Of a stretch of 64,000 nt of DNA, positions 51,122-64,000 are shown piece after piece; within the stretch, counting starts at the first letter, position 1; each line of letters opens with the position of its first letter. This DNA comes from Rhizobium sp. J15 (GTDB taxonomy: Bacteria > Pseudomonadota > Alphaproteobacteria > Rhizobiales > Rhizobiaceae), in the NCBI RefSeq assembly GCF_002531825.1, contig NZ_NWSX01000001.1:248001-312000 (forward strand), given 5' to 3'. The notes beneath the pieces are model-generated. The model was not told the origin of the DNA. It saw only the letters and a program-made list of their open reading frames with translations, and did not search any database. Made by a program: the position numbers and the translations under genes.

Positions 51122-51589
51122 TTACTGGGCCATCTGCGGCTGCTTTGCCGCCCGGGCTGCGGTCAGTTCCGCTGTGGTGTGGTTCAGACGGTCGGCGAGC
51201 ACGCGCATGATTTCGACCGCCATTTCGGGGAAATCGCTGAGCAGCTTCAGGAAGTGCTCCTTGCTGATGCGCAGCACTTCGAGCGGCGAGGTGGCGCGCA
51301 CCGTGGCCGTGCGCGAGACGTCGCAGAGAATGGCGATTTCGCCGACGATGGAATTGAGCTCGACATCGGCGACCTTGATCTCGCCAGCAGGCGAGGAGAC
51401 GATGATGTCGGCGCTGCCGGAGAGGATGACATAGGCGGCGTCGCCGACGTCGCCCTGGTGAAAGAGATCCTGACCGGCCTTGTAGGTCATGCGATCGGAG
51501 GTGAAGGCCAAAAGCTTGAGCTTGGCCGGTGCAATCCTTGAAAAGATCGGCACCCGCCGCAGCATTTCGACTTCGTCTCTCAACAGCAT
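51122..51589 (-). CDS. Stand-alone cyclic-nucleotide-binding protein
   Basis: 155 aa made almost only of a CAP-family cNMP domain (residues about 12-125). The phosphate-binding cassette VGEIAILCDVSRTATV keeps the Gly83-Glu84 and Arg93 that contact cyclic nucleotide ribose and phosphate. No HTH follows, so it is not a CRP-type regulator. ATG 51589 (MLLRDEVEML) is chosen over the longer frame. It lies 97 bp after the degenerate ABC gene, same strand, and may regulate that protein in response to cAMP or cGMP. This link is inferred from position. Confidence 0.85.
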   Translation of the reverse strand: MLLRDEVEMLRRVPIFSRIAPAKLKLLAFTSDRMTYKAGQDLFHQGDVGDAAYVILSGSADIIVSSPAGEIKVADVELNSIVGEIAILCDVSRTATVRATSPLEVLRISKEHFLKLLSDFPEMAVEIMRVLADRLNHTTAELTAARAAKQPQMAQ

Positions 51590-51686
51590 GAGCGTTTCAA
51601 TCCCCTGACATCGGGCCGCGAGACCAGACGCCTTCAAACTCCGGCATTCCCCCGGGAACACCTACCATCGCCGCCCCAATAGAATA

Positions 51687-54401
51687 TTACGATAACAGTT
51701 CCTTGAACATACCGTTTTTCTCGGAAAGTTCCGGATAGTTGCCGGCTTCCGCCAGACCGCCGCGGTCGAACAGCAGGATCCGGTCGAACATCTCGGCGAG
51801 CCGCGCATTGGTGAGCACCCAGATGATCGCCGGCCGTTGGCCTTCCTCATGCAGGTCTTCGATGATGTTGCGGGTGATCTGATCCTGGACGCGCTGGTCG
51901 AGCGCCGAAAGCGGCCGGTTGAAGATGAAATAGTCCGAGCGCTTCAAAAGCGCGCGGGCGAGATTGAGCTTCTGTCGCTGCACCATGGTCAGCCGCTTGC
52001 CGCCGGAGCCGACGTCGAATTCGAGGCCGATCGACAGGACATCGTCATAAAGGTCGAGCGCGTCGAAGAGTTCGCCCATGATGGCGCGGATGCGGTCGGA
52101 GGCATCGGCCTGCTGATAGGCGATACGGCCGAAGAGCACATTGTCCATCAGGCTCGCCGAGGGCGTGAAACGTTCCGCGTCGTAGCGCTCGATCAGCTCG
52201 GCGAGGTCGGCCGGAATATGCTCGTGGAACTGCTTGCGGGCGCTGACGATCTTGTCCGTCAGCTCGTTCGTCAGCAAGCCGAAGCGGTGGCGCGGTTCGA
52301 TATAGGCAAAGCTCAGCCGGATGATGGCGGAGCGTTCCTCCGGCGTGGCGTCCTCGAAGCGGCGGCTCTGCAGCTTCTGCAGCAGCGCCTGATAGGTCGG
52401 AATATCGTCCGCCGTCATGAAGGTCAGCTGCTGGAAGAAAGGATGGTCCGGCGGCAGGTCGTGGAAGAGTTCCACCGCGTTCTCGGCGATCTCGAGGCCC
52501 ATGGCGTAGAGATCGGTGCTCAAGCCCGTCTCACGGAACAGCTGCTGGAAATAGGGATGCGCGGCCAGCCTGCGATTGGTCATCAGGGGCCGCTTCATCG
52601 TGCCGAAGAGCAGGTTCTCGCCAACCGTCGCCTGGGCGTTGTAGGCGTCGAAATCGAAAGGCACAACGATCCCGTCGAGCCCCTCGTCGCGCAGCCGGTC
52701 CCTGAGCGAGGCGCGCAAGGCCACGACATGGTCGCTGACGGCCACATGCACGTCGGTATTGACGTTCGAGCGCAGCGCCAGGTCGAGGATGTCCTGCGAG
52801 ATCAGAACGGCGTCGAGCACCGGCCGGATCGCTTTCAACAGGTCTTCCGGCCCGCTGGCGCCGGCCGCCTTGTAGTCCACCCAGTCGCTGTTGAGGTCGA
52901 GCGTCGGATTGCCTGCCTTCACCGCCTCGGCGGAATGCCATTTATATTCCTGCGCTTCCTTCTCGTCATAGACGGGGTCGGTCATCGGCGCGTGCTTGAG
53001 GCCGTAGAGCAGGTTGCTGGCGAGCGAGCCGTGGAAGAAGAAAGTGTCGGCCGAAGCATAGGAGATGCGCCGTCCGGTGATCGATTCCGGCATATCGAGG
53101 AGATCGCGCCCATCGATGGTGATGCGGCCGGAATCCGGCCAGACCATGCGGCCGAGGGCTTCGGCGAAAGCTTCCGCGCCGCTGCCGTTCGGGCCGACGA
53201 TCGCAACCGTTTCGTTCGGCTTGATCTCGGCGGAAACATGATCGACGAGGCGGGCGCCGCTGTCGTCGGAGACCGAGAGGTTGGTGACCACAAGCGCGCT
53301 CGTCAGCGCCCCGACCGGAGCCGTCTCGAGTTCTTGGATCTGGCTGTCGATCAGCGGCTCGACGTTGAATTGCTCATAGACCTGCTGGTACTTCACCTGC
53401 ACGTCCTGGCGCATCTGGTCCCAGTCGATCAGTTCCTTCAGCGGCCCGGGCAGGTCCTTGTAGGCTGATATGACGGCGACGAGCTGGCCGATGTCGAGGC
53501 GGCCCTGCAGCGCCAGATAGCCGCCGATCGCGTAAAACAGGAAAGGCGTGACCTGGGCGAGGAAGTTGTTGATGAACTTCACCAGGAATTTCCACTGGTA
53601 CAGGTCGTAGCGGATCGAGAAGATGCGGCCGAGCCGCCAGGCGATGTCGGCACGTTCGAGGTTGGACGTGTCGTTGCCGTGAATCGTGCCGATGCCATCG
53701 ACGATCTCGCCGACGCGGCCGGAAAGCTCTCGCGCCGTCAGCTGCCGCTGGCGGCCGAGGTCCAGCAGGCGTTTCCGCATGCGCGGAATGACGACCGCCT
53801 GGACGCCGACGATGCCGGCGGCGATCATGCCGAGCCAGAAATTCTGCACGATGATGAAGGCAAGCGCGGTGATCGCCTGGCCGCCGAGGAGGGCGGGCGA
53901 GACGAAGGCATCGCCGGTGAAGCCGCCCATCGGCTCCACCTCGTCCTTGATCATGGTGGCGATCTCGGCTGATTTCACCCGCTTGAAATGAGCGGGCGGA
54001 AAACGCAGCACCCGGTCGATCAGCTCGAAGCGGATGCGCCGCAGCATGCGTTCGCCGAGCCGGCCCTTATAGGTGTTGATATAGAATTTGAAGAGGCCGT
54101 TCAGCACCACGAGCGCCAGGAACACCAGGCTGAGCGCCATCAGCATCTGGAAGCGGTTGAGCTCCAGGCCTTGAAAGAATTCGACATGGCCGATCAGCGG
54201 AATGTCGTAGGCGATGTGCATGAACTTCTGCGTGGCGCCCGGTCCCTCGAATCCATCGCCCTGGATCGGTCCGTTGACGATCTGCTTGGGCAGATCGAAG
54301 GACAGGAAATAGGGAATCATCGAGGCGGCGACGACAGCCAGGATCCACAGCTGCTGCAGCCGCGTGTTCTTCCAGATGTAGCGGGCGAGGCTTTTTTCCA
54401 T
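51687..54401 (-). CDS. ABC-exporter-like protein with degenerate, expanded ATPase domain
   Basis: 904 aa, about 300 longer than a normal half-exporter. Residues 1-330 form an ABC type-I transmembrane domain. The NBD starts near 365. Walker A reads GPNGSGAEA (403-411), so the catalytic Lys is Ala409 and Ser/Thr is Glu410. The signature is LTMVQRQ (804-810), Walker B ends FNRPLSALD with Asp-Glu replaced by Asn828-Arg829, and the H-loop His is Asn865. About 300 residues are inserted between Walker A and the signature; the motif N-[LV]-L-[FY]-G appears three times (463, 596, 754). It probably cannot hydrolyse ATP normally. Operon with the cNMP protein; function unknown. Confidence 0.85.
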   Translation of the reverse strand: MEKSLARYIWKNTRLQQLWILAVVAASMIPYFLSFDLPKQIVNGPIQGDGFEGPGATQKFMHIAYDIPLIGHVEFFQGLELNRFQMLMALSLVFLALVVLNGLFKFYINTYKGRLGERMLRRIRFELIDRVLRFPPAHFKRVKSAEIATMIKDEVEPMGGFTGDAFVSPALLGGQAITALAFIIVQNFWLGMIAAGIVGVQAVVIPRMRKRLLDLGRQRQLTARELSGRVGEIVDGIGTIHGNDTSNLERADIAWRLGRIFSIRYDLYQWKFLVKFINNFLAQVTPFLFYAIGGYLALQGRLDIGQLVAVISAYKDLPGPLKELIDWDQMRQDVQVKYQQVYEQFNVEPLIDSQIQELETAPVGALTSALVVTNLSVSDDSGARLVDHVSAEIKPNETVAIVGPNGSGAEAFAEALGRMVWPDSGRITIDGRDLLDMPESITGRRISYASADTFFFHGSLASNLLYGLKHAPMTDPVYDEKEAQEYKWHSAEAVKAGNPTLDLNSDWVDYKAAGASGPEDLLKAIRPVLDAVLISQDILDLALRSNVNTDVHVAVSDHVVALRASLRDRLRDEGLDGIVVPFDFDAYNAQATVGENLLFGTMKRPLMTNRRLAAHPYFQQLFRETGLSTDLYAMGLEIAENAVELFHDLPPDHPFFQQLTFMTADDIPTYQALLQKLQSRRFEDATPEERSAIIRLSFAYIEPRHRFGLLTNELTDKIVSARKQFHEHIPADLAELIERYDAERFTPSASLMDNVLFGRIAYQQADASDRIRAIMGELFDALDLYDDVLSIGLEFDVGSGGKRLTMVQRQKLNLARALLKRSDYFIFNRPLSALDQRVQDQITRNIIEDLHEEGQRPAIIWVLTNARLAEMFDRILLFDRGGLAEAGNYPELSEKNGMFKELLS

Positions 54402-54736: not shown

Positions 54737-55189
54737 TCAAGCCGCGACGTCGCGAAGCACGGTATTAGGATCGGCATGGCTCATTGCTTCCGCGATCATA
54801 TCGGCATCCTCATCGCCGATGCCGAACAAACCGAAGCGGAGCTGATAGCCCCAATTGGGGCCGACCCTCGTGAAGGCGAGCCGGCCGAGCAGCGACCGGA
54901 TCGGGGTTTCCTCCGCAGGCTGCCAATCGACATCCCGCCGCCAGGGCCTGAAACCGCTTTCCATCTCCACCTGGTAAGGCACCCCGTCGCGGGCCGTGCC
55001 GATCGCGGTAAAAGCCTGAAGGCGGTCCTTGCCGCCAAAGACGGCGGTGGGCGAATAATAGATCACGCGATCCCCAGGCGTGATCCGCCTGAGGGGTGAT
55101 GCCTTGCCGTGACAAACCTGCATGAAGCCGGCTTGACGGCCGATGCGGACATGCTCTGCGGAGGCGACGGCAACCCAGGCTTTGGCCAT
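54737..55189 (-). CDS. EVE-domain (UPF0310) protein
   Basis: 150 aa, nearly all one EVE domain: [40 protein letters not shown] and [10 protein letters not shown] are characteristic. EVE/PUA-like folds bind modified bases in RNA or DNA. It starts 3 bp after the VOC gene and ends at a good terminator, so it closes the WYL-VOC-EVE run. Confidence 0.85.
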
Positions 55190-55192
55190 GGC

Positions 55193-55567
55193 TCAAACCT
55201 CCTCGGCCATGGTGTAGACGCGCAGGCGATGCCCATCGGGATCGGCGGCGACGAAGCTTCGGCCGAAATCGAGATCGGTCGGCGCCATGACAATATTCGC
55301 GCCCTTGGCCTGCCAGTCGGCGTGAGTCGCATCGACCTTGTCGGTCGCGGCGACCTTGAACCCAATTTCGGAGCCCCCGCCCGCCGCTGCCGGCGCGGGC
55401 TCGACGCCCGCCTTGCCCCAGAGACCGAGCCCCAGGCCGGAGGGCAGGATGAACATGGCGAAGGTCTCGCTTGCTTCCACGGGCTCCTTCCCGAGCAGCT
55501 TGGCGTAGAAGCGGGCGCTCGCCGGCGCGTCGTTCACGTAGAGAAGAATGCTGTTGCTGGCGGTCAT
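55193..55567 (-). CDS. VOC-family (glyoxalase-like) protein
   Basis: 124 aa of the vicinal-oxygen-chelate fold; YVNDAPASARFYAKLLGKEP and the C-terminal DFGRSFVAADPDGHRLRVY are typical. ATG 55567 has GGGAGA upstream; the longer frame runs into the operator region. It may be a glyoxalase, dioxygenase-like enzyme or antibiotic-binding protein. It is probably under the WYL regulator through the palindrome at 55614. Confidence 0.85.
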   Translation of the reverse strand: MTASNSILLYVNDAPASARFYAKLLGKEPVEASETFAMFILPSGLGLGLWGKAGVEPAPAAAGGGSEIGFKVAATDKVDATHADWQAKGANIVMAPTDLDFGRSFVAADPDGHRLRVYTMAEEV

Positions 55568-55613
55568 AAGGGTCTCCCGTTGTTCGTTGGACAGCCGAAC
55601 CTTATGACCTGAC

Positions 55614-55632
55614 ACTGCCAAATTCTGGCAGT
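55614..55632. promoter_or_regulatory. Palindromic operator in front of the VOC gene
   Basis: ACTGCCAAATTCTGGCAGT, a perfect 7-bp dyad with N5. The same CTGCCA-N5-TGGCAG occurs upstream of the WYL regulator gene at 56355. It lies 47 bp upstream of the VOC start. Confidence 0.7.
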
Positions 55633-55633
55633 A

Positions 55634-56329
55634 TCATACGTCTCGATGCGATATTCCCTGGCTCTCGCGCCATTGTTTTAGCAGCGTCTGCCGGCGCTTC
55701 GGATAGCGCGCATCGAGCGGTTGCGCATGAACGATTCGATCCGTGCGAAACGAGCGGAAATCCTGACGGAGTTCGCACCAGCCGAGGAGGACGCGCACCT
55801 GGTCGAAAAAGGCGAGCGCGAACGGCCACACCACGCGCTCCGACGCCACGCCGGCGCCGTCGTTATAGGACAGGGAGAGCTTGCGTTCGGTGCGGATCGC
55901 CTTGCGCAGAAGCGCCGGATCGACCGAATCGATGGGGATTTTGGCGCCGGGCCCTACCAGAAGGGCGGATGCATCCAGTGCCTCGCGCAGTTCGGGCGGC
56001 AGCACGGCAGCGATCCGCGCCAGCGCATTTCGCGCTGCATCGCGCAGATGATCGTCGCCTCTGTCCGCTACCCACCGGGAACCGAGCACGAGAGCTTCTA
56101 TCTCTTCCGGCGGAAACATCAGCGGCGGCAGGAGAAATCCAGGTTTCAGGACATAACCGACGCCCGGTTCGCCCTCGATTGCCGCGCCCTGGGCCTGAAG
56201 GCTGGCGATATCCCGATAGAGGGTGCGGATGCTGACGCCGATCTCGTCGGCCAGCACCCCGCCGCTGACCGGCCGGCGGTGGCGGCGCAATACCTGGAGA
56301 AGGTCGAGAAGGCGTTCGGAGCGGGACAT
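55634..56329 (-). CDS. YafY-type HTH/WYL transcriptional regulator
   Basis: 231 aa. The N-terminal winged HTH is SERLLDLLQVLRRHRRPVSG and VSIRTLYRDIASLQAQG, followed by a WYL domain (RKAIRTERKLSLSYNDGAG, VWPFALAFFDQVRVLLGW). WYL regulators often sense ligands and control adjacent genes. The gene is followed after 66 bp by VOC and EVE on the same strand, and both promoter regions carry the same palindrome. Confidence 0.88.
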   Translation of the reverse strand: MSRSERLLDLLQVLRRHRRPVSGGVLADEIGVSIRTLYRDIASLQAQGAAIEGEPGVGYVLKPGFLLPPLMFPPEEIEALVLGSRWVADRGDDHLRDAARNALARIAAVLPPELREALDASALLVGPGAKIPIDSVDPALLRKAIRTERKLSLSYNDGAGVASERVVWPFALAFFDQVRVLLGWCELRQDFRSFRTDRIVHAQPLDARYPKRRQTLLKQWRESQGISHRDV

Positions 56330-56428: not shown

Positions 56429-57589
56429 TCATTGAGATTCCCAAACCTTCGAATTGCCGGCCAGCATGGAGCGAATGATGCCGGCGGTTTTCTCGGCCCC
56501 GTCGAGATCGAGCGATACCGTGCCGCGCCCTGGCGCTGTGAGCGCCTTTTCGACGGCTTCCTTGACATGGCCGGACGTCAGTCCCGTTTCCGGCAGGATG
56601 TCGGCGAGATCGAGTGCCTGGAGCCGTTCGGCGCGCACCGTCTGCTCGGTCTCGCCGCCGGCGACGAAGGGAATGAGGATTGCCCGGCATTCGGTGCGCA
56701 AGAGGTCGCCGACCGTGTTGTAGCCCGCCTGCGAGATCGAGACCCTGGCGCCGCGCAGCAGCGAGGGAAAGTCCTTGCGGAAGCGCACCAGCCTCACATT
56801 TGGGGCCGCGTCCTGCGACAATGCGGCGAAATCGGCCTCCGGCAGGTTGGGGCCTGATATCAGCAGCCAGCGAAGATGATCCGGCAGCATCGCTGCCGCC
56901 TGTTTCGCCGCGCCGATCAGCTCGGCGCCGACCGCGCCGCCGCCCGCCGAGGCGATGATATCGAATGTCTCGCTCGGCTCCGGCGCCGGCGGCGGCGCGA
57001 CGAGGCCGGTATAACGCAGCCTGTCGGCGATCTCGGCCGTCAGCGGGAAGGTGTCCTCGAGCCTGACAAAGTCCGGGTCGCCGTGGACCAGCACGGCGTC
57101 GAAATGGTCCCTGACCAGCGCGACCGTCTCGGCGTCGCGGCCGGCCTTGCGGTTTTCCTGCAGGATGTCGCGCACCGAGCTCAAGAGTTTCGGCCGCGGT
57201 TCGGCCTTGTCGATCGCCGCAAGCAGCGGCAGCAGTTCGAAGCGCATCTGCCGTCGGCCGAAGGGAAAGGCTTCGATGATCACGACATCGGGCCTTACGG
57301 CATGAAAGGCGTCGAGCAGCAGATCGCGGCGGGCCGCAAGGAAATCCTCGCCGGCCGGCCAGCCGTCGGCATCGGCAAGGCCGGAGAAACCGGCATTGCT
57401 GGCAACGACGGCCGGGAGCGCCACGGTCTTCACGCCTTCGCCCGGAAAGCCCGGCACCGGCAGGCCGCCGGTCACGACCGTGACGTCGAAACCGTCGCTG
57501 ACAAGCGCATTGGCGATGCGGCTGGCACGGGCGATGTGGCCGATGCCGAGCAGGTGCTGGACATAAAAGAAGATACGCGGTGCCGTCAT
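56429..57589 (-). CDS. Glycosyltransferase, COG4671/MurG-like, second copy
   Basis: 386 aa GT-B fold. The N-terminal YVQHLLGIGHIARASRIANA and the C-terminal SISQAGYNTVGDLLRTECRAI match the predicted glycosyltransferases related to MurG. It overlaps the preceding GT4 gene by 4 nt (ATGA). It resembles the first gene of the set (58843-60051) in layout. Donor and acceptor are unknown; a surface glycan is likely. Confidence 0.82.
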   Translation of the reverse strand: MTAPRIFFYVQHLLGIGHIARASRIANALVSDGFDVTVVTGGLPVPGFPGEGVKTVALPAVVASNAGFSGLADADGWPAGEDFLAARRDLLLDAFHAVRPDVVIIEAFPFGRRQMRFELLPLLAAIDKAEPRPKLLSSVRDILQENRKAGRDAETVALVRDHFDAVLVHGDPDFVRLEDTFPLTAEIADRLRYTGLVAPPPAPEPSETFDIIASAGGGAVGAELIGAAKQAAAMLPDHLRWLLISGPNLPEADFAALSQDAAPNVRLVRFRKDFPSLLRGARVSISQAGYNTVGDLLRTECRAILIPFVAGGETEQTVRAERLQALDLADILPETGLTSGHVKEAVEKALTAPGRGTVSLDLDGAEKTAGIIRSMLAGNSKVWESQ

Positions 57590-58833
57590 GACGCCTTCTG
57601 CCATTCGGCCTCGAACAGGCCGGTGAGCTGTCTGATGCTGGAGTGATAGTCGAACTCTTCGCGCACCCGTCTTTCGGCCGCATCGCCGAGACGCTTGCGC
57701 AACGCCGGATCGCGGATCGCCGCTTCCAGGGCTTTCGCCAGCAGCGCTGGATCCTCTGGCGCCACCACGAGGCCGTTTTCGCCGTCCCTCAGCAGTTCCG
57801 GCACGCCGGATACTTCGGTCGAAACACAGACGAGCCGCTGGCTCGAGGCTTCCACCAGCACGTTCGGCAGGCCGTCGCGATCGCCGTTGGCGGCGATCCG
57901 GCAGGCGAGCGCGAAGAGGTCGGCGCGGCGGTAGTGATCGAGCACGTCTTCCTGCGCCAGAGCGCCCTTCCAGGCGATGCGGCCGGAGAGGCCGAGTTCG
58001 CCGGCCAGCGCCTTCAGCTTCGCCAGCGCCTCGCCGCCGCCGATATGATCCATGCGCCAATGGAGGTCGGCGGGCAGGAGGGCGAGCGCGCGCAGCAGCA
58101 CGTCGTAACCCTTTTTCTCGACGGCGCGGCCGACGCTCAGGATGAGGGCGGGATCGTCCGGGTCATTGCCGGTGCGCTGCGAACGCTCGCCGGCAAAGTG
58201 GCCGAAACGGGCGAGATCGAGACCGTGGTAACTCAAATGCACCGCATCCTTGCGCGATGTCAGCAGGCGCATGTGCTCATAACCCGTCCGGGTGCAAGTG
58301 ACGGTCCAGCGGGCGCTTTTCAGCTTTTCAGTGAGCTCCCAGTCGGGCGACGTCCATATGTCCTTGGCATGCGCCGAGCAACTCCAGGGTGTTCCCGTCA
58401 GCATGCTCGCATATTCCGTCACCGAAGCCGGCGTATGGATGAAGTGGGCATGCAGCCACTCGCCTCCATCCGGCCATTCGCGCGCCAGCACCAGCGCCTG
58501 TCCGAGCCGGCGGAAGCGGTTGCGGGAGAGATCGCGCTTGAGGTCGGCGAGAAAGCGCTTCATCAGGGCGTTGAAGCCCGGCTTTGAAAAGCCGGCGATC
58601 AGGCCTTTCAGCACGCGGATCGGCTCCTCGTGCAGATATTCCGGCAGATAGACGACTCGCGCCTTGATCTCGTCATGTACGGGATGGCGCTTCTTGTCGG
58701 TCGGCCGGCGCATCGAAATCAGGGTCAGGTCAAAGCCGGCCTTTTCGAGGCCGAGCAGTTCCTGAGCGATGAAGGTTTCCGAAAGGCGGGGATAGCCTTT
58801 CAGCACGACGAGAATCTTGCGGCGTGGCGGCAA
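57586..58833 (-). CDS. Glycosyltransferase family 4
   Basis: 415 aa with the GT4 features KGYPRLSETFIAQELLGLE, LSVGRAVEKKGYDVLLRALA and NVLVEASSQRLVCVSTEVSG (acidic E-x7-E-like region, slightly altered). The TTG at 58833 lies 9 bp after the previous stop. It is the middle gene of the three-gene glycosyltransferase cassette. Confidence 0.85.
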   Translation of the reverse strand: MPPRRKILVVLKGYPRLSETFIAQELLGLEKAGFDLTLISMRRPTDKKRHPVHDEIKARVVYLPEYLHEEPIRVLKGLIAGFSKPGFNALMKRFLADLKRDLSRNRFRRLGQALVLAREWPDGGEWLHAHFIHTPASVTEYASMLTGTPWSCSAHAKDIWTSPDWELTEKLKSARWTVTCTRTGYEHMRLLTSRKDAVHLSYHGLDLARFGHFAGERSQRTGNDPDDPALILSVGRAVEKKGYDVLLRALALLPADLHWRMDHIGGGEALAKLKALAGELGLSGRIAWKGALAQEDVLDHYRRADLFALACRIAANGDRDGLPNVLVEASSQRLVCVSTEVSGVPELLRDGENGLVVAPEDPALLAKALEAAIRDPALRKRLGDAAERRVREEFDYHSSIRQLTGLFEAEWQKAS

Positions 58834-58842
58834 GGCTGTGCC

Positions 58843-60051
58843 CTATTCTGCGCCGACGAGGGCAAGGTGGCTGCCGCGCCCGTCGAGCCACCGGCCGACG
58901 GTCTGCGAAATGTGATCCAGCCCTTCGAGATGCATATTGCTGCCGCTCTTCGACGGCGGCAGGCGGGAGGGCAGACGCTTCAGCGCCTCGGCCATGACAG
59001 CCGGATCGGCAGATTGTTCCGGCAGCAGCATATCGATGAGGCCGAGCTCGCTGGCGCGTATGGCGCGCAGCAGCTGCTCCTCGCGCGGCTTGACGCGCGG
59101 TACGATGAGGGCCGGCTTGTCGAAGGAGAGGATCTCGCAATAGGTGTTGTAGCCGCCCATGGCGACGACGCCGGTCGCGCTGGCGATCAGCTCCTCCATG
59201 TGATTGTCGAACTCGATCACCTCGATATAGGGAATGGCTTCGCCCTTCTGCACCAGCTTGGCACGCTCGGCCGCCGGCATATAGGGGCCGAGCACGACGA
59301 GCGCCTTCTGCGTCAGCGTCGGATCGGCCTCGTAGGCGTTCATGACGTCATGGACGAGGTCGGAACCGTCGCCGCCGCCGCCAGTCGTGACGAGCAGGTA
59401 GTTGTCCTTGCGGGCGTTGATCGAGCTCTTGCCCTTGGAGACGCTGCGCTGCAGGAAGCCGACGAAATCCATCTTCCGGCGCAGGCTGGCCGGCACGTCG
59501 AGACCGATCAGCGGGTCGTAGAAGTCGGGCGGACCGTAGACCCAGACGCTGTCGTAATACTGGTCGATCTTCTGCATGATGCTGTTCTTTTTCCACTCGG
59601 CCTCGAGCAGATGCGGCGCATCCATGATCTCGCGCAGGCCGAGCACCAGCACCGTGCCGCGGGCCTTCAGATAGGCAAGCGTATCCTCGACCTCTCCCTT
59701 CAGCCCCATCGGCTCCTTGTCGACGATGAAGATATCGGGCTGGAAGGTCTCGGCCGTGTGGCGAATGCTGGATTCGCGCATCTTCAGCGTTTCGTGCAGG
59801 TCGATGTGGCTGGCGAGCGACGTATATTCGCCGTTGCGCAGCTTGATGACGCTCGGGATCTTCACGAAGTCGACGCGGGCGCGGTAGTCGAAGGCGCCGG
59901 CGATCGTGGCGCCCGAAATGATCAGGATATTGAGGCCGCGATAATCTTCCACCAGCGCGTGGGCGATGGTGCGACAGCGGCGCAGGTGGCCGAGCCCGAA
60001 GGTGTCGTGGCTGTACATGAGGATGCGTGCATCTTCGAGACGTCTGGCCAT
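58843..60051 (-). CDS. Glycosyltransferase, COG4671/MurG-like, first copy
   Basis: 402 aa. MYSHDTFGLGHLRRCRTIAH is the COG4671 N-terminal signature, and AMGGYNTYCEILSFDKPALI the donor-site segment. ATG 60051 has GGAGGGAAC upstream. It starts the glycosyltransferase cassette 96 bp downstream of the ABC permease genes, on the same strand. Confidence 0.85.
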   Translation of the reverse strand: MARRLEDARILMYSHDTFGLGHLRRCRTIAHALVEDYRGLNILIISGATIAGAFDYRARVDFVKIPSVIKLRNGEYTSLASHIDLHETLKMRESSIRHTAETFQPDIFIVDKEPMGLKGEVEDTLAYLKARGTVLVLGLREIMDAPHLLEAEWKKNSIMQKIDQYYDSVWVYGPPDFYDPLIGLDVPASLRRKMDFVGFLQRSVSKGKSSINARKDNYLLVTTGGGGDGSDLVHDVMNAYEADPTLTQKALVVLGPYMPAAERAKLVQKGEAIPYIEVIEFDNHMEELIASATGVVAMGGYNTYCEILSFDKPALIVPRVKPREEQLLRAIRASELGLIDMLLPEQSADPAVMAEALKRLPSRLPPSKSGSNMHLEGLDHISQTVGRWLDGRGSHLALVGAE

Positions 60052-60147
60052 AGGCGTTCCCTCCGGGGTGAACAACATTGTTAGCACCCCCACCGTCCGG
60101 AGGCCACGAGGCGGGGGCGGTGCCGGAAGGCGCCGCCGAGCTTTCTG

Positions 60148-61320
60148 CTATTTGTAGGGATCTGCCGCATCACGCAAGCCGTCTCCCAGAAAGTTGAATG
60201 CCAAAATGACAAGAACAACAGGAATGATCGGAAAGAGCAGCCAAGGATAGAAGGCGATGACACTGACGCTTTTTGCTTCGGTCAGCAGGATGCCCCAGCT
60301 GGTGATCGGCGGGCGAAGGCCGAGGCCGAGGAAGGAGAGGGCAGTCTCGCCGAGAATCATGCCGGGGATCGAAATCGTCGCCGAGGCAATGAGATGCGAC
60401 ATGAAGCCAGGTACCAGATGCCGGCCGATGATGCGCGGCGTGCTGGCGCCCATCAGCTGTGCGGCCTGCACGTAATCCTCCTCGCGCAGCGCCAGCAGCT
60501 TGGAGCGCACGGCGCGGGCAAGACCCGTCCAGTCGATGATGCCGAGGATGACCGTTATGCCGAAATAGATGACGATTGGGCTCCATGTCACCGGCATGAT
60601 GGCGGCCAGCGCCATCCACAGCGGCAGGCTCGGCAGGGACTGCAGCACCTCGATCAGGCGCTGGACGATGAGATCGAAAACTCCGCCCCAATAGCCGGCA
60701 AGGCCGCCGATGACGATGCCGAGGACGAAGCTGATCGCAATGCCGATGAGGCCGATCGTCAGCGAGATCCGCGCGCCGTAGAGGATCCGCGAAAGGACGT
60801 CACGGCCGAGCCGGTCGGTGCCGAGCAAGAACATCTGGCCGCCGATCGACGGGCAGACCAGATGATAGTTCGAAGCGGCGAGACCCCAGAACTTGTAGGA
60901 ATCGCCGCGGCAGAAGAAACGGATCGGCTGCACGTCGTTCGGCCTGTCGGTATAGACGCGATGCAGCGTATCGAGATCGAGCGTCATGCTGCGGCCATAG
61001 ACGAAGGGGCCGACGAAGCTGCCCTTGTCGAAGAAATGGACGCGCTGCGGCGGCGCATGGATGAAGTCGACGTTGCGGGTATGCAGGCCGTAGGGCGCCA
61101 GGAACTCGACGATCAGGATCATCAGATAGATGACGGCGAGAAAGATGCCGGAGATCAAGGCCAGCTTGTGCTGCTTGAACTTCCACCACATCAGCCGCTT
61201 CTGCGAAGCGAGATGGATGCGCGACTGCGCCGCCGTCATGGTTTCGGTGGCGTGCGGATCGAAAGGCGCGGTCGAGACGTAATGCGGAAGCGGCGCGCCG
61301 GGTGCGGGAAGGGGCGACAT
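60148..61320 (-). CDS. Oligopeptide-type ABC permease (DppC/YejE-like)
   Basis: 390 aa. The N-terminal region has an anchor (LALISGIFLAVIYLMILIVE) and a longer periplasmic loop, as in YejE. The EAA loop region (LREEDYVQAAQLMGASTPRI) and LGTDRLGRDVLSRILYGAR are typical of DppC. It overlaps the DppB-like gene by 1 nt (TAATG). With its partner it forms the inner-membrane channel for a family-5 substrate; ATP-binding subunits are not in the window. Confidence 0.88.
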   Translation of the reverse strand: MSPLPAPGAPLPHYVSTAPFDPHATETMTAAQSRIHLASQKRLMWWKFKQHKLALISGIFLAVIYLMILIVEFLAPYGLHTRNVDFIHAPPQRVHFFDKGSFVGPFVYGRSMTLDLDTLHRVYTDRPNDVQPIRFFCRGDSYKFWGLAASNYHLVCPSIGGQMFLLGTDRLGRDVLSRILYGARISLTIGLIGIAISFVLGIVIGGLAGYWGGVFDLIVQRLIEVLQSLPSLPLWMALAAIMPVTWSPIVIYFGITVILGIIDWTGLARAVRSKLLALREEDYVQAAQLMGASTPRIIGRHLVPGFMSHLIASATISIPGMILGETALSFLGLGLRPPITSWGILLTEAKSVSVIAFYPWLLFPIIPVVLVILAFNFLGDGLRDAADPYK

Positions 61321-62318
61321 TATTTGGTGCTCCTGCCTTGCAGGCGGATGCGGGGATCGAGGAAGCCGAGCGCGATGTCCGAGATCAGCACGCCGATGAC
61401 GTTGAGGAAGGCGAGGAACATCAGGAAAGAGCCGGCGAGATACATATCCTGGCTCTGCAGCGCCTTGATGAGCATCGGTCCCGTCGTCTCCAGCGACAGC
61501 ACGATGGCGACGATCTCGGCGCCCGAAATGATCGAAGGCAGGATCGAGCCGATATCGGCGACGAAGAAGTTGAGCGCCATGCGCAGCGGATATTTGACCA
61601 GCGCCCGCATCGGATGCAGGCCCTTGGCGCGGGCGGTCGTCACATACTGCTTCTGCATCTCGTCGAGCAGGTTGGCGCGCAGCCGCCGGATCATGCCGGC
61701 CGTTCCGGCGGTGCCGACGATGATGACGGGAATCCAGAGATGGGCGAGGATCGACTTCGCCTTTTCCCAGCTCATCGGCGCGTTGAGATATTGCTGGTCC
61801 ATCAGGTGGCCGATCGAGAGCCCGAACCAGACATTGGCGAAATACATCAGGATCAGCGCCAGCATGAAGTTCGGGATGGCGATGCCGAGCAGCCCGAGGA
61901 AAGTCAGTCCGTAATCGCCCCAGCTATACTGATGCGTGGCCGAATAGATGCCGATCGGAAAGGCGATCAGCCAGGTGAGCAGGATCGTCGTGAAAGAGAC
62001 GAGGATCGTCAGCCACAGGCGGTCGCCGACCACGTCGGAAACCGGCAGCTGATATTCGAAGGAATAGCCGAAATCGCCGTGCAGCATGCCGCCGACCCAG
62101 TAGAAATAGCGCACGATCTCCGGCTTGTCGAAGCCGTATTGCTGGCGCATCTCCTCGATTTCCTGGAGGTTGGCGGTCTCGCCGGAGGCGCGCAGCTCGG
62201 CGATCTGGCTCTCGAAGAAATCGCCGGGCGGCAGTTCGATGATGGTGAAAACGAGCGCCGAAATGACGAAGAGCGTCGGCACCATGGCGGCGATGCGCCA
62301 GAGAATGTATCTGAGCAC
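61320..62318 (-). CDS. Oligopeptide-type ABC permease (DppB/YejB-like)
   Basis: 332 aa, GTG start with GGAGG upstream. Six helices and the EAA loop YVTTARAKGLHPMRALVKYP fit the DppB/OppB family. It starts 3 bp after the solute-binding protein gene and overlaps the next permease. Confidence 0.88.
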   Translation of the reverse strand: MLRYILWRIAAMVPTLFVISALVFTIIELPPGDFFESQIAELRASGETANLQEIEEMRQQYGFDKPEIVRYFYWVGGMLHGDFGYSFEYQLPVSDVVGDRLWLTILVSFTTILLTWLIAFPIGIYSATHQYSWGDYGLTFLGLLGIAIPNFMLALILMYFANVWFGLSIGHLMDQQYLNAPMSWEKAKSILAHLWIPVIIVGTAGTAGMIRRLRANLLDEMQKQYVTTARAKGLHPMRALVKYPLRMALNFFVADIGSILPSIISGAEIVAIVLSLETTGPMLIKALQSQDMYLAGSFLMFLAFLNVIGVLISDIALGFLDPRIRLQGRSTK

Positions 62319-62321
62319 GCC

Positions 62322-64000
62322 TCAGGCCTCCTTGTACCAGAATGCATCCGGCATGTAGACGCCGAGATAGGAGGTGGGATCGAAGCCGTAGAGGGCTTTC
62401 GCCGGCAGGTTCTGCAGCTTGGCGGCGCGAAGGATCGGCTGCAGCGTGCTGTTGATCAGGCCGATCGAGAAGACCTGCTGCGTATAGAGCGCCAGCATCT
62501 TGTGCCAGATCACCTGACGCTCCTCGAATTTCGCCGTCGAGCCCCATTGCTTGAGAAGATCGACCAGTTCGGCCGCCTCCGGCAGATCGGGTGCCACGCC
62601 TTCTTGGCCCGCGGAGAGGTAATGCATGCCCCAGAGCGGCCATTGCAGCTGATCGTCGAGCGTCGGCGCAAGCCCGGAGGGCGACATGTCGGCGGTCGGC
62701 ACGCCGTTGTCGAGGCCGTACCAGATCGACATCATGATCGTGCCGCTCATGGCGCGGTTGCGGAAGACGTCGCGCTGCGAGGTGCGGGTATAGAGCGCCA
62801 GGCCGACATTGGCCCAGTGATCGTGCACCAGCTCCAGCACGTCGGTATCGAGATTGCTCTCGCCGGCCGTTTCGACAGTGATCTCGGCGCGCCGCCCGTC
62901 GGGCAGCAGCCGGATGCCGTCATCGCCGCGCTTGGTCAGGCCGAGTTCGTCGAGCAGTCGGTTCGCCTCGTCCTGATCGAACTTCACATAGGCGTCGGCA
63001 TATTCCTGCTTGAAGAGCGGGCTGTCGGGCAGGACCGTATCGGCGCTCGGCGTGCCGAGACCATAGAACGCGACCATGTTGATCTCGTGCCGATCGATCG
63101 CCAGAGACAAAGCGCGGCGCATGCGCACGTCGCGGAACAGGCCGCGCCACGCCTCGTCGGCGCAGTTGAGGTTCGGCAGCAGGGTGATGCGCGAACCGCG
63201 CGCGAGTTTCCAGAGATCGACCTTGACGGGGAAGCGCTTCTCCGCCTCCTTCAGGAAGGTGTAATCGTTGAAATCGATGCCTGTTGCCTGCAGGTCGGCT
63301 TCTCCCGCACCGGCCTTGGCGGCGATGATCGACGAGGAGGAAACGTTGAGAACGAAACGGTCGAGATAGGGAAGCTGCCTGCCGTTCTCGTCGACGCGGT
63401 GGAAGAAGGGATTGCGCTCGAAGACGAATTGTTCGGCCGGCAGCGCCGTCGTATTGCGCCAGGGATCCAGTGTCGGCAGGTTCGGATTTTCGGGGCGGTA
63501 GGAGCGTGCCATCTTGATGTGCAGATCCTGCCACTTCTTGACGCGGTAGGTCTTCATCATCTGTTCCATCTTCGCCTCGTCCGGCTGGAACTTCTTGTGA
63601 AACTGCTTGAGGTAATGTCCCGGGCCGAAGATGACGAGCGGCTGCGGGCCCGCCAGGCTCGGCAGGAACATCGGGTTGGGCTTTTCCCAGCTATAGCGCA
63701 CGGTCAGCGGATCGAGCATCTCGAAGCGCGGCAGGTTGCCGTGCGGGCGCAGCTCCAGCGCGCCGCCGCCCGGCGTCAGCTTGTCGTTGAGGATGACGTC
63801 TTCCCACCAGTAACGGAAATCGTTGGCCGTGAACGGTTCTCCGTCGGACCATTTATGGCCCTCGCGCAGCGTGAAGGTGAAGACCGTGTCGTTCTCGGAA
63901 CGGAAATCGGCGAGGATATCAGGCTGGAATTGCAGATGCTTGTCATAGCCGATCAGGCGGGAATAGCCGTAGATCGTCATGAAGCGGATGTCGCGCTGGC
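62322..64000 (-). CDS. Family-5 extracellular solute-binding protein, truncated by the window edge
   Basis: The C-terminal part (about 559 codons) of an SBP_bac_5 protein. HKWSDGEPFTANDFRYWWED, MRRALSLAIDRHEI and DEANRLLDELGLTKRGDDGI are conserved. The signal peptide and start lie beyond position 64000; the Met at 63980 is internal. It delivers peptides, sugars or opines to the two permeases downstream. Confidence 0.9.
   Translation of the reverse strand, partial: QRDIRFMTIYGYSRLIGYDKHLQFQPDILADFRSENDTVFTFTLREGHKWSDGEPFTANDFRYWWEDVILNDKLTPGGGALELRPHGNLPRFEMLDPLTVRYSWEKPNPMFLPSLAGPQPLVIFGPGHYLKQFHKKFQPDEAKMEQMMKTYRVKKWQDLHIKMARSYRPENPNLPTLDPWRNTTALPAEQFVFERNPFFHRVDENGRQLPYLDRFVLNVSSSSIIAAKAGAGEADLQATGIDFNDYTFLKEAEKRFPVKVDLWKLARGSRITLLPNLNCADEAWRGLFRDVRMRRALSLAIDRHEINMVAFYGLGTPSADTVLPDSPLFKQEYADAYVKFDQDEANRLLDELGLTKRGDDGIRLLPDGRRAEITVETAGESNLDTDVLELVHDHWANVGLALYTRTSQRDVFRNRAMSGTIMMSIWYGLDNGVPTADMSPSGLAPTLDDQLQWPLWGMHYLSAGQEGVAPDLPEAAELVDLLKQWGSTAKFEERQVIWHKMLALYTQQVFSIGLINSTLQPILRAAKLQNLPAKALYGFDPTSYLGVYMPDAFWYKEA

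Follow-up and report, generated by a model that had tools for sequence, protein, structure and literature searches.

We have analysed a 64,000-nucleotide stretch of the genome of Rhizobium sp. J15 (contig NZ_NWSX01000001.1, positions 248,001 to 312,000; hereafter the window), and in particular two adjacent genes which encode a protein resembling an ATP-binding cassette (ABC) exporter and a small stand-alone cyclic-nucleotide-binding (cNMP) protein. The ABC-like protein has, by prediction, the complete fold of an exporter and has lost the residues with which exporters hydrolyse ATP. It belongs to a widespread family which is under purifying selection and has a near-constant cNMP partner. We give an even chance to the reading that the pair is a cyclic-nucleotide-responsive membrane complex which works independently of ATP hydrolysis, is built on a retired ABC exporter and serves a surface-glycan system.

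The reading frame of the ABC-like protein starts with ATG and has no internal stops. Pfam recognizes ABC_membrane at residues 86-311 (4.6e-16) and, of ABC_tran, the start portion only (386-484). An AlphaFold2 model of the 904-aa protein, made with 35 family sequences (pLDDT 83.7, pTM 0.77, with the nucleotide-binding domain (NBD) and its insert mostly near 90), has the type I exporter architecture of a membrane fold and an NBD fold. In a comparison with solved structures, the predicted NBD matched the ComA NBD over 239 of 239 residues (Z 30.2, root-mean-square deviation (rmsd) 2.1), and the predicted whole chain matched chain 6qv0_C of TM287/288 (Z 29.0, rmsd 4.5, 445 residues aligned) and also resembled TmrAB and MsbA; a second comparison with the PDB covered mainly residues 1-865 and hardly included the cNMP part. 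Because both the NBD and the whole chain match these proteins, the ABC-exporter fold is complete as modelled and the chemistry alone is gone. In Walker A, Ala409-Glu410 stands instead of Lys-[Ser/Thr] and the pattern GxxGxGK[ST] is broken; in Walker B the Asp-Glu is replaced by Asn828-Arg829 (IFNR); the signature reads LTMVQ, and the H-loop lacks its His (Thr864/Asn865 by alignment). All motif features that we scored are lost in the window protein, and a preliminary description of the window, made from its letters, had named these residues correctly.

How far is this loss shared by related proteins? We gathered 203 loci by similarity, and since these are redundant (with the window locus and R. 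etli present twice and many close Rhizobium) and Rhizobiaceae-heavy, counts of clusters are fairer than counts of loci. Motifs were counted in 198 of the loci, forming 87 clusters at 70% identity, after exclusion of the fragments L059, L060 and L066 and of reading frames of 700 aa or less; L198, a doubtful member on a very long branch, was retained. Three ATPase-bearing exporters from related genomes (L208-L210) served as controls and fit all four motif patterns. Orthologues with intact ATPase motifs, which the preliminary description had said would point to local decay, did not appear: neither SGG at signature positions 805-807 nor the canonical set of GK[ST], SGG, Asp-Glu and His occurs in any of the 87 clusters, and all five scored features are absent from 45. 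Position 409 is occupied by Arg in 27 clusters, Ala in 24, Lys in 23, Gly in 10, Thr in two and Cys in one. The residue after a retained Lys is Glu or Asp in 19 clusters, Gly in two, Ser in one (L193) and His in one, and Walker A Lys followed by Ser or Thr is found in L193 only (1/87). Walker B Asp-Glu survives in four clusters and the H-loop His in 13. On a tree of the membrane domain, in which 36 of the 84 inner branches are weakly supported, the distribution of Lys versus other residues needs at least eight changes. Decay of the site outside the window's clade is thus partial and repeated, and the conservation of the four substitutions raised in the preliminary description holds for the window's part of the family, in which they are fixed, and not for the rest.

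Could ATP still be used by some members? L074 keeps Lys, Asp-Glu and His, L193 keeps GKS and Asp-Glu, and the signature of L051 is LTGGQ, so ATP binding or hydrolysis may persist in some lineages. It might be that the protein still binds ATP at an unusual site, with slow hydrolysis in some lineages, and that the cNMP protein adjusts what is otherwise an exporter driven by ATP, like HetC, and both the scattered survival of Lys, Asp-Glu and His and the several features kept together in L074 and L193 would fit such a picture. Nevertheless, the residue that follows a retained Lys is mostly acidic, SGG is missing throughout and the window protein is left without any scored feature, and we regard this explanation as unlikely.

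The NBD of the window protein carries an insert of about 270-300 residues (roughly 470-740). The preliminary description had reported a gain of some 300 residues here; the insert is real, and it contains further copies of a part which the NBD already has, its helical arm. Profile-profile comparison (hhalign) of three stretches, R1, R2 and R3 (Table 1), gave matches over 56-67 columns for R1 with R2 (P 5.1e-7), R2 with R3 (P 7.2e-13) and R1 with R3 (P 6.1e-8), and R1 and R2 matched once more over 30 columns (P 2.9e-5); in the single control, R1 against the membrane domain, one column was aligned (P 0.33). Each stretch has a Q-loop-like segment, with the endings NLLYG, NLLFG or NVLFG, and the repeat segments are visible in aligned full-length homologues. 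As the three stretches align mutually, the core of the helical arm is, by this comparison, present in three copies; the remainder of R1 and R2 is accounted for in part only, by their additional match. A simple new domain, the other interpretation of the insert that we considered, was dropped in favour of the arm repeat on these matches. We know of no other ABC protein with such a tripled arm.

The ratio of nonsynonymous to synonymous substitution (dN/dS), calculated for 30 orthologues of the genus (435 pairs), was 0.036 in the membrane domain, 0.067 in the first part of the NBD, 0.054 in the insert and 0.045 in the last part of the NBD. These values point to purifying selection in all four regions; local decay was rejected on them, and the earlier impression that the gene is maintained is borne out. 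Of 90 genomes of the genus, 89 have a relative at E<=4.2e-81, and the one that lacks it (G079) is 73% complete; elsewhere in the order 28 of 60 genomes have one, so the gene is no chance occurrence. A profile of the insert finds matches at E<1e-30 in about 130 (counted by hand) of 385 class genomes; a tally of 220 class genomes at E<=0.001 includes ordinary ABC proteins, whose listed matches cover only the last 80-100 model positions. At E<=1e-15, 31 of 398 phylum genomes match this profile, all labelled as the window's own or as of its genus, family, order or class. One member (L178) lies in a metagenome-assembled genome labelled Granulosicoccaceae, which may be mis-binned. Carriers include Rhizobium, Sinorhizobium, Mesorhizobium, Agrobacterium, Phyllobacterium, Shinella and Pseudooceanicola; relatives in Ruegeria and Azospirillum are plasmid-borne, and in R. 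etli CFN42, whose pair has the locus tags RHE_RS24195 and RHE_RS24190, the gene sits on plasmid p42e.

In the cNMP reading frame Pfam recognizes cNMP_binding (PF00027, 2.3e-19) and one short sub-threshold DUF match; it finds no DNA-binding domain, and a C-terminal part of the Crp/Fnr transcription-factor type was not recognized. The Arg of the phosphate-binding cassette is present in 38 of 38 partner rows and the Glu in 36, with Asp in L040 and L060. The protein which follows the ABC-like gene is thus as first described, with an intact cassette and without a DNA-binding domain. Residue 25 of the window frame is a Met at which many orthologous frames start, as does the gene annotated in R. etli (468 bp), and the shorter gene listed in Table 1 is therefore more likely. 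The cNMP gene lies 3' on the same strand in 178 of the 203 loci and is fused to the C-terminus of the ABC-like protein in 16, together 194; by clusters, the partner is adjacent or fused in 82 of 87. Fused versus separate states need at least three changes on the membrane-domain tree. Chance adjacency, which an unlinked cNMP gene in most genomes would have suggested, was rejected on this linkage and the 16 fusions. Adjacency or fusion was not scored by our script in nine loci (L059, at a contig edge, L064, L066, L072, L198, L203, L039, L060 and L197), and in the last three of these a cNMP match is still at, or overlaps, the end of the ABC frame. Genome G035 has two extra copies of the ABC-like gene, L064, nearly full length, and L066, a C-terminal fragment, neither with an adjoining cNMP gene. 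Highly divergent fused copies, up to three per genome (G302), occur in one family of the class (L184-L189, in G479, G302 and G171).

The closest sequence relatives of the membrane domain that we found have no NBD at all. A profile of this domain scored 137-154 bits with NBD-less frames of 345-412 aa, versus 27-34 bits with the three ATPase exporters; for a near-identical profile the best PDB chain reached 62 bits. In a survey of 299 phylum genomes at E<=1e-20, with up to seven candidates scored per genome, 25 of the 33 matches listed were long proteins of the pseudo-ABC type and eight were short (323-425 aa). The stand-alone membrane-domain proteins L211-L215 and L224-L229 (313-413 aa) are the nearest kin found. 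In a tree whose root was chosen on only three ATPase exporters, L224 and L225 (a 382-aa frame from another class) group with the pseudo-ABC proteins (SH-aLRT 97, as against 87 for the 20 pseudo-ABC proteins by themselves); another nine NBD-less proteins fall just outside. No ABC ATPase gene was seen directly beside the NBD-less proteins in the stretches read, of which that of L225 is a 3.2 kb contig and in which codon-based calls may miss genes; near L220, L227 and L228, ABC-ATPase-like genes, recognized by eye or motif, lie 2-5 kb off with other genes between. A membrane domain of the pseudo-ABC type can evidently, as far as these comparisons go, persist in a chain that has no NBD. According to the accessible part of PMC4979069, MsbA stripped of its NBD still transports ethidium by means of the proton gradient. 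At L217 the gene of one such protein is flanked by a P-type ATPase gene and an LPG-synthase-like one, and other neighbours of these proteins, by eye, are CBS, BON and acetate-kinase-like.

Is it possible that the window protein forms a heterodimeric ABC exporter as its degenerate half, with the single active ATP site coming from an unlinked partner and the cNMP protein doing no more than regulate? Degeneracy at one site is well known among type I exporters, as the accessible part of a review describes (PMC7756269), and the heterodimeric exporters TM287/288 and TmrAB are among the fold matches. On the other hand, the NBD-less nature of the closest membrane-domain relatives found argues against it, Pfam found no second exporter-type gene among the neighbours (ten proteins each at L031, L034, L052, the window and its genome, a survey of linked genes only), and none is annotated in the R. 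etli stretch. We consider such a heterodimer improbable.

What might the pair serve? In R. etli CFN42 the genes stand in the order cyclase-domain, ABC ATPase, solute-binding, two permeases, three glycosyltransferases, ABC protein and cNMP protein, with a glycosyltransferase gene directly upstream of the ABC gene and with DUF3095, a nucleotide-sugar dehydrogenase and a second cyclase close by. The window's genome has the same order (Table 1), an Opp-type ATPase (ABC_tran 3.6e-61) and then a cyclase-domain gene following past the solute-binding gene, except for EVE, VOC and WYL-domain genes (54737-56329) between the glycosyltransferases and the ABC gene. In 150 loci, relatives of the glycosyltransferases were found in 92, 80 and 77 and of the permeases in 58 and 45, on either strand, a tally which mixes unequal flanks and includes about 30 loci with only about 1.5 kb. 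In some genomes a ferredoxin-cyclase or a protein of the metallo-beta-lactamase (MBL) fold comes directly after the cNMP gene. Within 5 kb, a cyclase catalytic domain occurs in 22 of 40 clusters (one locus from each, with no flank shorter than 5 kb), an MBL-fold protein in 21, one or the other in 27 and DUF3095 in six; the cyclase profile came partly from the same loci, and the "downstream" MBL count of this tally (38) is inflated by two queries. In 61 genomes of the order, which were not matched to the 40 clusters, cyclases have a mean density of 1.73/Mb, from which 0.022 would be expected per stretch; the highest density gives 0.10. The window's genome has 23 cyclase-domain hits, three of them within about 30 kb on one side. 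HxHxDH is present in all 46 MBL proteins found. The cyclases at L207:1654-3363 and L034:11275-12942 have a 2Fe-2S ferredoxin domain and, by eye, a membrane part, and their domain make-up suggests redox-controlled synthesis of cyclic nucleotides beside the ABC/cNMP pair. DUF3095 (PF11294) recurs near the cluster, for example at L206:8375-9598; we do not claim that it is a relative of nucleotide cyclases, for which the profile comparison gave only a faint indication (hhalign probability 5%, P 0.008).

Table 1. Positions of the ABC/cNMP pair, its motifs and repeats, and the neighbouring genes in the window
Feature	Coordinates	Strand	Basis
Pseudo-ATPase ABC-exporter-like protein, 904 aa	51687..54401	-	ORF, Pfam, AlphaFold2 model
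Transmembrane domain, residues 1-360, best-conserved part	53322..54401	-	dN/dS 0.036, alignment, model
Degenerate Walker A GPNGSGAEA, residues 403-411	53169..53195	-	family alignment
Stretch R1, residues 440-575, with predicted first copy of Q-loop/helical-arm core	52677..53084	-	hhalign
Stretch R2, residues 570-735, with predicted second copy	52197..52694	-	hhalign
Stretch R3, residues 730-830, predicted third copy, runs into degenerate signature	51912..52214	-	hhalign
Degenerate signature LTMVQ, residues 804-808	51978..51992	-	family alignment
Degenerate Walker B YFIFNR, residues 824-829	51915..51932	-	family alignment
H-loop position Thr864-Asn865, without His	51807..51812	-	alignment (WVLTN)
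Stand-alone cNMP-binding protein, 155 aa from Met25 of longer open reading frame (ORF; 51122-51661)	51122..51589	-	Pfam, orthologues
Phosphate-binding cassette GEIAILCDVSRTATV	51299..51343	-	partner alignment
Glycosyltransferase, GT28-like, start uncertain	56429..57598	-	Pfam
Glycosyltransferase group 1 (GT4-like)	57586..58833	-	Pfam
Glycosyltransferase, GT28-like	58843..60093	-	Pfam
OppC-type permease	60148..61320	-	Pfam
OppB-type permease	61320..62318	-	Pfam
Family 5 solute-binding protein, cut by window end	62322..64000	-	Pfam

The evenly balanced reading given at the outset can be put as follows. The transmembrane domain would retain the exporter fold and do the work, and the NBD, with the core of its helical arm three times over, would have turned into a non-hydrolysing regulatory platform. 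The cNMP protein would dock on the cytoplasmic side, probably near the C-terminus of the NBD, where it is fused in several lineages. A nucleotide cyclase would produce the ligand and the MBL-fold enzyme would probably clear it. Ligand on the cNMP subunit, and not ATP hydrolysis, would then switch the membrane domain, which may flip, leak or otherwise control the glycan or glycolipid that the glycosyltransferases encoded nearby would produce. We infer in this model the binding and identity of the ligand, the docking, the gating, the energy source and the substrate.

Several observations weigh against it, beginning with the possible residual ATP use in L074, L193 and L051. The EVE, VOC and WYL genes part the glycosyltransferases from the ABC gene in the window's genome, where the distance to the nearest cyclase and MBL genes is 12-34 kb, and 13 of the 40 clusters have neither a cyclase nor an MBL gene within 5 kb. 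One MBL protein scored 49 bits against the NCBI cyclic-nucleotide phosphodiesterase model, the cut-off of which is 400. Moreover, cNMP domains can take other ligands; that of HetC bound guanosine tetraphosphate (ppGpp) and not cyclic AMP, according to the accessible text of PMC10986499.

Might the protein be no transporter, and instead a sensor or scaffold that picks up an external signal with its membrane domain and so directs the cyclase or the glycosyltransferases? A pseudo-enzyme NBD together with signalling neighbours would agree with this, and SUR is an example of an ABC fold serving as a regulator. Yet the conserved exporter-type membrane domain and the glycan genes fit transport at least equally, and we find a pure sensor or scaffold very unlikely. 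A wider form of the ligand-switched complex, which we put forward only tentatively, is that throughout the alphaproteobacteria an NBD with a three-fold arm acts as a receptor platform through which a local cyclase/phosphodiesterase pair gates an ATP-independent translocator of glycan or glycolipid, and that the membrane domain shares ancestry with the NBD-less ABC proteins.

S. meliloti may offer a natural mutant. In the pSymB copy of strain 1021 (L182:5598-8307) the ABC-like gene falls into two reading frames around residues 135-163, and it is in one piece in several other S. meliloti records; unless there is a sequencing error, strain 1021 may have lost the intact gene. SMb20813, possibly the S. 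meliloti family member, is named as the msbA homologue in the accessible part of PMC10945364.

ABC exporters are defined by ATP hydrolysis, and a widespread, selected family without it would mean, if our reading is true, that the fold can run on a signal ligand. The pair would offer a natural system in which to ask about roles of the NBD besides hydrolysis. Cyclic nucleotides in rhizobia, with the many cyclase-domain hits of this genome, would possibly act on a membrane target directly as well as on transcription factors. With fusions and NBD-less relatives available in nature, the question can be put to the test on a few purified proteins.

We found no description of the ABC/cNMP pair in the open-access papers searched, most subscription papers lying outside that search. 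The window protein shares its predicted fold with the type I exporters MsbA, Sav1866, TM287/288 and TmrAB and with the ComA NBD; unlike them, it has lost the catalytic residues, repeats the arm core, has an NBD longer by about 270 residues and, across its family, has a near-constant cNMP partner. In the accessible part of the review of type I exporters cited above (PMC7756269), degenerate sites are treated as one of two, and neither "two degenerate" nor "both degenerate" is among the expressions used. The cNMP protein matches the cNMP domains of PKA/PKG, SthK and CRP (a PKG 9e-21; 5d1i_A 3e-20; SthK 2e-11), but stands alone, without a kinase, channel or DNA-binding part. The NBD-less membrane proteins of alphaproteobacteria and of one other class, the closest relatives found for the membrane domain, differ in having no NBD and scattered contexts, and the cNMP gene of the family was not found directly beside them in the stretches read. 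In SUR, chains of which are among the structure matches, and in CFTR, the ABC exporter fold is likewise used for regulation or gating; both are eukaryotic, keep nucleotide binding and a competent site, and are not known to have such a cNMP-binding partner subunit. HetC of Nostoc, an exporter of the peptidase type, likewise joins an ABC exporter with a cNMP-type domain which is needed for function. In HetC, however, as far as the accessible text of PMC10986499 goes, an ATPase residue is essential, the cNMP domain is N-terminal, a C39 peptidase is present and the ligand found is ppGpp.

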